Shown one piece after another: positions 13,952-26,966 of a stretch of 64,000 nucleotides of DNA. Where the stretch lies: assembly GCA_029564935.1 (NCBI GenBank), contig JAKQPD010000058.1:1-64000 (forward strand), in the 5' to 3' direction. The position numbers were made by a program, and so were the translations under genes. Source of the stretch: Bacteroidota bacterium (GTDB lineage: Bacteria; Bacteroidota; Bacteroidia; Bacteroidales; VadinHA17). The notes under the pieces are model-generated. The model was not told the origin of the DNA and did not search any database. It saw only the letters and a program-made list of their open reading frames with translations. Position 1 is the first letter of the stretch. Each line of letters begins with the position of its first letter.

Positions 13952-14009
13952 TTTGTTGAATTACGGCTGCAACATTCATTGCCAGACAATAAAAATATCC
14001 GGCAGCTTG

Positions 14010-14459
14010 TTATCCGAGGAGCTGTTTTACCTTTACAGAGATATCTTTCCCATCTGCTTTTCCGGCAAGTTCTTTGGTTGCTACCCCCATCACCTTACCC
14101 ATTTCCGCCAGGGATTTTGCACCGGTTCTTTCAATTATCGCTTTTACGATCCGGGTAAGCTCTTCATCACTCAGACGCGCAGGAAGGTATTTTTCAAGAA
14201 CATCTGCTTCGATGGTCTCCTTTTCGGAAAGATCCTGCCTGTTGTTTTCTTTGTATATGGCAGCAGATTCCCTTCTCTGCTTCACCAGTTTCTGAATGAT
14301 CTTTAGCTCCTCTTCACCGGATAATACCGAATCCGTACCTTTTTCCGATTTCGCGAGAAGAAATGCTGTTTTTGCAGCTCTTATTGCCTCAAGAGCAACC
14401 TTATCATTTCCTTTCATTGCCTTTATCAGATCGGCGGCAATTTGTTCTGTAAGTGACAT
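14010..14459 (-). CDS. GatB/YqeY domain-containing protein
   Basis: MSLTEQIAADLIKAMKGNDKVALEAIRAAKTA; MGKVMGVATKELAGKADGKDISVKVKQLL. Confidence 0.9.
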   Translation of the reverse strand: MSLTEQIAADLIKAMKGNDKVALEAIRAAKTAFLLAKSEKGTDSVLSGEEELKIIQKLVKQRRESAAIYKENNRQDLSEKETIEADVLEKYLPARLSDEELTRIVKAIIERTGAKSLAEMGKVMGVATKELAGKADGKDISVKVKQLLG

Positions 14460-14722
14460 TGTAATCTGTATTAATAATTTTTCTGTATAATCGTTCAAAG
14501 ATATAAAACAGTATCTATTCCTGTTATTATTATAAAGTGTAATTGTTTTTACGACCAATGTATATAGTCGTTGATCCCGTAAAATTATCGGCTACAATTC
14601 ATTACAATAAATTTTAAAAATCCCATTAATACCCGGTTTTTTATGTCCGCGGATTCATGTATTTTTTTAAACAACTAATCGGGGAATTTCCTATATTGCA
14701 TTTATTCGCTGCATTAACATTT

Positions 14723-15601
14723 ATGGATTCTCTTTACAGGAACAAATTCAGAACCGGTTCTGCCCGGTGTCGTGGATATGATTATACATCTCCAGGCAGA
14801 TATTTCATAACCATTTGTACCAGGAACAGAATCCCGTATTTCGGTAAGATCGAAAACGGTAAAATGATTTTATCAGCATCAGGAGTAATTGCTGAGAGAT
14901 ATTGGAGGGAAATACCAAAACATTTTCCTTTTGTTGATTTGGATGTATTTATAATTATGCCTGATCATATGCATGGAATAATTATAATAAATCGCCGTCC
15001 CCCATCAACAAAAAATCCCGGGAAATTAATTTCTGGTTTCGATGGTGCCATTGGTGTTAACGGTGCGGGTAATGTTGGCGGTGCGGTTAACGTTGATGGT
15101 ACGGTCGGGTTTGACGGTACGGGCGTGGTTGACGGGACGGGTGTGGTTGATGGGGGCGGGATGGTTGATGGGACCGGTATGGTTGACGTGGACGGTATGG
15201 TTGATGGGACGGGTATGGTTGACGTGGACGGGATGGTTGACGGGACGGGTGTGGTTGACGTAGAGACGCCCAATTTGGGCGTCTCTACCGGGAATTCCAA
15301 TGAACCATCCCAATTCCCCGTTTCGTATATTCCATCCACACCGGTTATTTTACCGGTAATGGGCGTTACAAATACCATACCGGCACCACATGCGGATTCA
15401 AAAAATCAATATTGGAAATCACAATCCGTCGGTTCGATAATAAATCAATATAAGAGGATCTGTACAATTAAAATCAGATCTGAGGGTTATGATTTCGAAT
15501 GGCAGGCACGGTTTTATGATCGCATCATCAGGGCGGGAAAAGAATATTCGGCAATTCGTAAATATATTATTATGAATCCAATGAAATGGAACCGGCAATA
15601 A
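14723..15601 (+). CDS. REP-associated tyrosine transposase (RAYT, Y1/IS200-like) with internal low-complexity insert
   Basis: RCRGYDYTSPGRYFITICTRNR, HUH-type MPDHMHGIIII, C-terminal FEWQARFYDRIIR...YIIMNPMKW; the two halves are separated by a GTGVVD-repeat stretch and an in-frame palindrome; start at Met 14723 preferred. Confidence 0.88.
   Translation: MDSLYRNKFRTGSARCRGYDYTSPGRYFITICTRNRIPYFGKIENGKMILSASGVIAERYWREIPKHFPFVDLDVFIIMPDHMHGIIIINRRPPSTKNPGKLISGFDGAIGVNGAGNVGGAVNVDGTVGFDGTGVVDGTGVVDGGGMVDGTGMVDVDGMVDGTGMVDVDGMVDGTGVVDVETPNLGVSTGNSNEPSQFPVSYIPSTPVILPVMGVTNTIPAPHADSKNQYWKSQSVGSIINQYKRICTIKIRSEGYDFEWQARFYDRIIRAGKEYSAIRKYIIMNPMKWNRQ
15041..15259 (+). repeat. 18-bp coding minisatellite inside the RAYT ORF
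   Basis: Units such as GGGACGGGTGTGGTTGAC (GTGVVD) and GTGGACGGTATGGTTGAT (VDGMVD); 36-bp higher-order unit GTGMVDVDGMVD present twice. Confidence 0.9.
15260..15288. repeat. REP-like palindrome inside the RAYT coding region
   Basis: GTAGAGACGCCCAATTTGGGCGTCTCTAC, perfect palindrome around one central base; in-frame translation VETPNLGVST. Confidence 0.9.
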
Positions 15602-15632
15602 ATAAAACGACCATGTGTAATTTGTTTTGATC

Positions 15633-15817
15633 GTAGAGACGCCCAATTTGGGCGTCTCTGTATAAATACCGGAATTATCGTAACAATGAGACGCCCAATT
15701 TGGGCGTCTCTGTATAAATACCGGAATTGTCGTAACAATGAGACGCCCAAATTGGGCGTCTCTACGTTAATATGGGAATTATCGTAACAATGAGACGCCC
15801 AAATTGGGCGTCTCTAC
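15633..15817. repeat. array of four REP palindromes downstream of the RAYT, exact 52-bp period
   Basis: GAGACGCCCAATTTGGGCGTCTC or its centre-swapped form starts at 15636, 15688, 15740 and 15792; conserved spacer ...CCGGAATTATCGTAACAAT. Confidence 0.95.
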
Positions 15818-15963
15818 GGATTACGGAAATGCCGGATTTATCGTAACCTCACCAACCAGGATAATTTTTAACAAATTTTTAAGAAATTTTTTTTTAACAT
15901 GTTTATATTCAAATTTATATTTGCCATTCGTGATAAACACCATTAAAATCAGGAGGACTTATT

Positions 15964-17115
15964 ATGTCAGATTCTGCGAAATTAAGAGGAATATTATTTA
16001 TCCTGCTGACAGTAATATTTGCATTTGATTGTAATGCAGCTGCCACAGCAGACAGTGTAACGTTATTCACCCCCTACACCCGGATCACTGTACCTCCCGG
16101 GGAATCAATAAATTACAGTGTGGATGTGATTAATAACAGCAAAGATCTCCGGAACATGGAAATTACGGTTTCAGGGATACCCAGAAGCTGGAATTATACC
16201 CTTACCTCGGGGAGTTACAAGGTTGGCCAGATAGCAATAATGGGAGGCCAGAAGCAAACTCTTTCCTTAAAGGTGGATGTACCTCTGAATGTTAACAAAG
16301 GAAGTTACAGATTCACTGTTTCAGCCGGAGCCGAAACCTCACTTCCGCTGGTCGTTGTGGTGTCGGAGCAGGGTACTTTCGAGACCGAATTCACCACAAA
16401 GCAGTCGAATATGCAGGGTCATTCTGCATCGACTTTTACATTTACCGCGGAATTGCGGAACAGGACTGCAGAAAAGCAACTATATGCATTCAGGACCAAT
16501 GCCCCGAGGGGATGGAATGTTATCTTCAAACCGAATTATAACCAGGCCACCTCTGTGGAGATAGAGCCGGCCGGGACTGTTAATGTCACAATTGAGATTA
16601 AACCTCCTGTAAACATACAGGCCGGGACATACCAGATACCGGTTGTTGCCGGGACCAATGCAACATCTGCATCGCTGAACCTCGAGGTTGTGATAACCGG
16701 ATCGTTCAATATGGAGCTCACCACACCGACAGGTTTGTTAAGCACCGATATTACTGCCGGAGACGAGAGAAGGATTGAGCTTATGGTAAGAAATACCGGA
16801 TCATCCGGTCTGTCGGATGTGGAACTGACCTACTCGGCGCCTGTAAACTGGGATGTTGTATTTGATCCTAAAAAGATCGACAGGATTGAAGCAGGGAACA
16901 ATGCCACTGTTTTTGCAACGATAAAAGCTGACAGGAAGGCTATTGCCGGCGATTATGTGACTAATCTTGAGGCAAAGACACCTGAAGTGGCCGCCAAGGC
17001 AACATTCAGGATATCCGTCAAAACACCGATGCTTCTTGGCTGGATCGGAATATTTATAATTCTTGCTGCTCTTGGAAGCGTATATTATCTGTTCCGGAAA
17101 TACGGAAGGAGGTAA
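15964..17115 (+). CDS. NEW3/CARDB-like repeat protein with signal peptide and C-terminal TM
   Basis: Repeated Ig-like segments with LELRNTGSS-type motifs; C-terminal LLGWIGIFIILAALGSVYYLFRKYGRR; next to ABC genes. Confidence 0.8.
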   Translation: MSDSAKLRGILFILLTVIFAFDCNAAATADSVTLFTPYTRITVPPGESINYSVDVINNSKDLRNMEITVSGIPRSWNYTLTSGSYKVGQIAIMGGQKQTLSLKVDVPLNVNKGSYRFTVSAGAETSLPLVVVVSEQGTFETEFTTKQSNMQGHSASTFTFTAELRNRTAEKQLYAFRTNAPRGWNVIFKPNYNQATSVEIEPAGTVNVTIEIKPPVNIQAGTYQIPVVAGTNATSASLNLEVVITGSFNMELTTPTGLLSTDITAGDERRIELMVRNTGSSGLSDVELTYSAPVNWDVVFDPKKIDRIEAGNNATVFATIKADRKAIAGDYVTNLEAKTPEVAAKATFRISVKTPMLLGWIGIFIILAALGSVYYLFRKYGRR

Positions 17116-26883: not shown

Positions 26884-26912
26884 TTGCAGGGTCAGAAATG
26901 GGCCATTACCAA

Positions 26913-26966
26913 AGACAAGGCATGCCTTGTCTCAACAATTATACAGGTCAAGACATGCCCTGTCTC
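26913..26966. repeat. REP-like palindrome plus degenerate second copy between etfA and the Fe-S oxidoreductase gene
   Basis: Perfect 20-bp palindrome AGACAAGGCATGCCTTGTCT (26913-26932); related AGACATGCCCTGTCT at 26951-26965. Confidence 0.85.

Follow-up and report, generated by a model that had tools for sequence, protein, structure and literature searches.

The RAYT (TnpA-REP) gene at positions 14723-15601 of the window, i.e. of the whole 64,000-nucleotide stretch of DNA analysed, contains in frame, between the parts encoding its HuH and Tyr motifs, a perfect REP palindrome, and comparison of many such genes argues that elements of this kind are conserved as nucleic-acid hairpins with GTAG/CTAC feet while the peptide that they encode drifts. 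The in-gene REP as a phenomenon is already published (Quentin et al. 2018, PMC6006769), and what the present survey adds is evidence that the DNA is kept while the peptide drifts. In the best explanation, to which we give about an even chance, the in-gene REP is kept, in an arrangement resembling that of TnpA-REP subclass 2.4, through recognition by its own RAYT, of which it would be the resident cognate REP.

The gene lies on the forward strand and encodes 292 aa plus a stop (an alternative ATG upstream, at 14657, would give 314 aa); it was assigned from its ORF and from family and fold matches. Alignment with homologues places three motifs on the same strand, the HuH motif DHMH (residues 81-84, 14963-14974), the WQ motif (residues 260-261, 15500-15505) and the Tyr motif YIIMNP (15563-15580, with Tyr 281 at 15563-15565), all in register with 55 homologues and forming one Y1 transposase core with a single catalytic Tyr; H82 and H84 are invariant in the alignment of 56 sequences. 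The original prediction of a RAYT-type transposase was borne out by a match to NF047646 (REP-associated tyrosine transposase; E = 1.8e-13, 50.6 bits, short of the curated cut-off of 80) and by the fold. The Pfam Y1_Tnp match is also weak (12.3, against a cut-off of 23); the long linker splits the match. A profile of the 56 homologues found 4ER8 (TnpA-REP; E = 2.7e-8) as the only PDB sequence, and the predicted structure matches this entry, a RAYT bound to a REP hairpin, over 270 columns (TM 0.61 by target length, E = 7.2e-4); in fold comparison the predicted core also resembles the ISDra2/IS608 transposases. Structure prediction of the two halves, proposed together with the original prediction, is confident for both (block pLDDT mostly 84-98) and drops below 50 over most of residues 100-218, the REP-encoded residues 180-189 included. 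As modelled, the window protein is an intact enzyme of the RAYT type, and its long, disordered linker accommodates both an 18/36-bp repeat and the REP. That the ORF might instead be a frameshifted or inactive relic, a possibility raised at the same time, was rejected, since it is uninterrupted and retains its motifs, and since the prediction for the core halves is of high confidence. In our own tree the protein sits on a long branch, 1.52 changes per column from the nearest row, and a plasmid search gave three partial matches only.

The linker repeat, a coding tandem repeat of 18/36 bp at 15056-15261 (forward strand), encodes GxVDGTG-type peptides, directly precedes the REP and has a G+C content of 0.59, against 0.37-0.40 in the two gene halves. 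Repeats of several kinds are thus tolerated in the linker, as that of other RAYTs contains unrelated coding minisatellites (e.g. at loci L154, L166 and L223).

The in-gene REP (15260-15288, forward strand) is a double-foot element, GTAGAGAC...GTCTCTAC, whose full sequence, GTAGAGACGCCCAATTTGGGCGTCTCTAC, is a perfect 29-nt palindrome with 14-nt arms, a 1-nt loop and no mismatches. As originally described, it is translated in frame, within the uninterrupted ORF, as VETPNLGVST (residues 180-189) and sits between the HuH and Tyr halves; structure prediction places it in the disordered linker. Its reported match to four REPs just downstream holds for the 23-bp core GAGACGCCCAAWTTGGGCGTCTC, common to all, and not for the full 29 bp, as the feet differ. 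Among these copies, all identified by core match, the first (15633-15659, forward strand) has a GTAG foot on the left side only, the second (15688-15710, no strand assigned) consists of the core with neither foot, and the third and fourth (15740-15765 and 15792-15817) have the GTAG foot on the minus strand, i.e. CTAC on the right side only; both feet, GTAG and CTAC, occur together only in the in-gene copy. The five occurrences of the core in the window compare with 0.00 expected from shuffles, and the four downstream copies form a tandem array with a 52-bp period. The further claim that the bases following the palindrome resemble the downstream spacer (TACCGGGAATT / TACCGGAATT), as if a whole REP unit had entered the gene, is not supported: the likeness is out of register, since the TAC of the gene belongs to the REP foot, and it is not significant, an equally good alignment being obtained with 98 of 890 random stretches of the window. 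There is thus no evidence for a REP-plus-spacer unit entering the gene. A genome-wide count, which had been proposed as a check, was made by pattern searches and located the core at 19 sites with at most two mismatches in the 4.18-Mb, 441-contig assembly (backwards control, 0), i.e. the in-gene copy, the four downstream copies and 14 sites elsewhere in the assembly. The gene is flanked, at 15633-15817, by GTAG-footed palindromic repeats, the same four copies, that recur in the genome. Elsewhere, at L004 (G000:C377:500-5000, about 2170-2400), a window-family REP lies at the edge of a CACGGAATCACGGAAC-type minisatellite.

The only other full-length RAYT found in this genome (L013, at 252-995 of G000:C197, minus strand), the N half of which is 47% identical, holds GTAGAGACAAGGCATGCCTTGTCTCTAC in frame (VETRHALSL) between HuH and WQ. 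The ends of this second in-gene REP are the same as those of the REP in the window, and the core is different. Its core has no exact copy elsewhere in the assembly, and its single one-mismatch copy there lies in the window at 26912-26933 (GACAAGGCATGCCTTGTC), just past a gene end, with a similar imperfect palindrome, AAGACATGCCCTGTCTC, within the 40 bases that follow. A long Gln/Pro-rich coding repeat lies next to it.

Survey loci were gathered by queries ending just past HuH, or by a family model, so that linker content played no part in their choice. A near-perfect linker palindrome was found in 97 of the 158 distinct RAYT ORFs, compared with 0/790 codon-shuffled linkers and 28/601 neighbouring ORFs (which amount to 582 kb, the linkers to 34 kb), while the catalytic parts yielded two palindromes in the stretch of 65 aa leading up to HuH and one in the 45 aa from W. 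Palindromes that the first survey placed 84-134 aa before HuH, and which probably precede the actual start codons, were left out of the in-gene count. The named loci with an in-gene palindrome come from Bacteroidota, Ignavibacteriota, Chlorobiota, Chloroflexota, Fidelibacterota, Cloacimonadota, Spirochaetota, Thermodesulfobacteriota, Pseudomonadota and several candidate-phylum groups (e.g. Parcubacteria). Most units start 6-20 aa after HuH, and the REP in the window, which starts 95 aa past it, is the farthest among those surveyed. Since 61/158 RAYTs have no near-perfect linker palindrome and presence or absence switches, by a rough count, at least 39 times on the RAYT tree (11 of these switches being forced by well supported branches), the in-gene REP is dispensable; it is a recurrent part of such genes that is conserved at the nucleic-acid level. 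The confinement of the palindromes to the disordered linker and the many gains and losses demanded by the tree are in accord with a scenario in which REPs copied by the RAYT frequently land near or in the gene and survive only in the linker, where an insert in frame does no harm, as passive passengers, renewed by insertion or conversion, the hairpin itself having no role there. Neutral insertion in flexible loops has indeed been favoured in earlier studies (PMC6006769, PMC3733652). However, this scenario, which we consider rather unlikely, does not readily account for the clustering of start positions a short distance past HuH.

Conservation of the hairpin was assessed in linkers picked by the left foot GTRGRGRC alone, so that palindromy itself was no selection criterion. 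At least 13 of the 14 pairs are formed in 61/92 of these linkers, and all six inner pairs in 48 of the 90 distinct sequences, against a mean of 2.1 and a maximum of 7 when the right arms were dealt anew (500 deals); when the register is shifted, inner pairing falls from 0.77 to between 0.20 and 0.35. Kinship inflates this contrast but, judging from the 24 different inner 6-mers found among the perfectly paired sequences, not to the extent observed. Conservation of the outer bases is equal in both reading frames that are used, GTA GAG AC (74 units) and GT AGA GAC (23 units), so one conserved DNA sequence gives rise to two different peptides; the third frame, which would turn the foot into a TAG stop, is absent. 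Conservation at the level of the peptide was rejected on these grounds. A peptide kept over a diverged palindrome had been named as the outcome that would speak against the original prediction, and the homologues display the opposite. There is hardly any variation in the GTAG foot or at positions 6 and 8 of the stem, while three or four pair types are seen at positions 9-12, in both frames. Such a near-fixed foot and outer stem, combined with a free but paired inner stem, is the profile that a hairpin recognised by TnpA-REP should have, and in other TnpA-REP groups recognition is known to depend on the GTAG foot and the stem (PMC8266576). A few in-gene REPs are starting to decay (L097 compared with L182), and in L049 the linker contains two imperfect copies of the REP, against a single perfect one in the closely related L048, as though the region with the REP had undergone a duplication within the gene.

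Paired changes separate close homologues at the same place (L053/L223, L232/L241 and L048/L049), which would not be expected of passengers. Such changes can also be produced by template switching during replication, which creates and mends stems (PMC8794818), and a purely mutational upkeep, in which one arm is rewritten from the other, would lead to paired drift without selection for the hairpin; the changes in L053/L223 and L232/L241 are its expected product. Nevertheless, this upkeep predicts equal drift of all stem positions, which seems difficult to reconcile with fixed and variable positions side by side in the same stem, and we hold it to be improbable as an explanation of the pattern. 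Template-switch repair may supply the paired changes, but it does not explain the fixed feet.

The REP core follows the RAYT lineage rather than the host genome. On a tree built from the catalytic parts with the linker omitted, a quick one with many weak branches and hence rough counts, the core requires 69 changes, compared with a mean of 86 and a minimum of 83 for shuffled cores (200 shuffles). With rising tree distance, 75, 23, 12, 9, 4 and 0% of pairs from different genomes share a core, and a core is common to 0/16 surveyed same-genome pairs, an exception being G007, in which three recent paralogues share theirs. At L088 (G007:C2:2299200-2303500), RAYT paralogues adjoin, and GTAGGGGCAATTCATGAATTGCCCC has three copies in that genome, all at RAYT genes. 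This tracking of the lineage argues against passive passengers, and so does the finding that 12 of 19 in-gene cores, in the 13 genomes covered in full, have no exact copy outside RAYT genes, a count made by hand, which would miss altered-foot copies and takes the G007 paralogues as one; the REP in the window is among the other seven. About a third of the genes have a near match in their own flanks (32/97 with at most 2 of 20 mismatches, vs about 1.8 expected from the flanks of other RAYTs), which speaks for the best explanation and for passengers alike, and the presence of the core in the window at 18 other genome sites also favours passengers. About half of the genes have no similar REP in their own flanks. 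Re-seeding from REPs elsewhere agrees well with the window but poorly with the unique cores.

In the preferred reading, recognition by the cognate enzyme, the catalytic core of a TnpA-REP is split by a long linker, the disorder of which would make an insert tolerable to the protein, and the double-foot REP lies there in frame. The RAYT would recognise the in-gene hairpin, most likely as single-stranded DNA, and this recognition would keep the hairpin; the resident REP would hold enzyme and substrate together as the gene moves, and the in-gene copy would serve to seed or refresh flanking REPs. The hairpin is most likely, on the sequence evidence, a gene-borne candidate recognition site for its own enzyme. 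Dispensability, the many genes lacking a similar flank REP and the alternative origin of paired changes in template switching can all be held against this explanation. A more far-reaching proposal, that selection maintains the in-gene REP as a cis element, is possible but more doubtful; the REP would be an address carried by the gene and co-evolving with the enzyme, would keep each RAYT together with its own core as the gene passes between phyla, and would act as a founder or refresh copy for the REP population. As RNA, the in-gene hairpin is also predicted to be strong (-23.3 kcal/mol, z -8.9), and by construction it is on the mRNA of its own enzyme, where binding by the RAYT protein could limit the synthesis of the latter. 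Such autoregulation, as put forward in the original prediction, is very improbable, however, because hairpins inside an ORF are normally melted by ribosomes and because the hairpin is absent from many RAYTs. Moreover, the known substrates of TnpA-REP are single-stranded DNA (PMC8266576), and no report of RNA binding by TnpA-REP was found in the literature searched. No known RNA family was found in the region 14000-16500, in which Rfam has no match at gathering score.

These observations bear on the question of what keeps a REP transposase in step with its dispersed repeats over long periods. Because an in-gene REP varies by paired changes, tracks the transposase lineage and is in many cases the sole exact copy of its core in the genome, such REPs provide dozens of natural combinations of enzyme and substrate that can each be read from a single gene, making recognition rules directly testable. 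They also represent an extensive natural example of hairpin conservation within a protein-coding gene at the expense of the peptide. The paired-change statistics, the two-frame conservation and the RAYT-linked inheritance of the core were not found in the literature searched (freely readable main texts), and no priority is claimed for them.

In TnpA-REP subclass 2.4, REPs are found within tnpA-REP genes, in frame and between HuH and Y, double-foot REPs (GT[AG]G ... C[TC]AC) occur, and a variable domain contains short repeats; the in-frame REPs are expected to affect protein activity little (PMC6006769). The window gene resembles this subclass in its length-variable HuH-to-WQ/Tyr domain with short repeats and in its in-frame double-foot REP, and subclass 2.4, like the surveyed loci, is scattered over many phyla. 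However, the subclass motifs are NH[IFV]H, WQ and YIxNNP, vs DHMH, WQ and YIIMNP in the window protein, whereas the second RAYT of the genome has them exactly (NHVH, WQ and YIINNP); HuH and Tyr are about 197 residues apart in the window protein, compared with a published subclass median of 88. Among the copies in the window the double foot is confined to the in-gene one, the flanking copies having one foot or none. The window gene, the motifs of which deviate and the linker of which is unusually long, is a further case of the subclass-2.4 arrangement, strict membership of the subclass not being claimed. With the classical RAYT/REPIN systems (E. coli TnpA-REP, Pseudomonas, Stenotrophomonas) it shares the enzyme fold (4ER8) and GTAG-footed flanking palindromes, but in those systems the REPs are described as flanking the gene and not as lying inside it, and the 23-bp core of the window has few copies in the assembly (19 sites). 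Finally, intragenic GTAG and CGTC REPs, including Rickettsia palindromic elements, have been described (Di Nocera et al. 2013, PMC3733652), which are likewise short palindromic repeats read in frame in protein genes; those reside in unrelated genes and mostly at differing sites, whereas the host gene here encodes the kind of transposase to which the REP belongs, and the REPs lie at a recurrent site.
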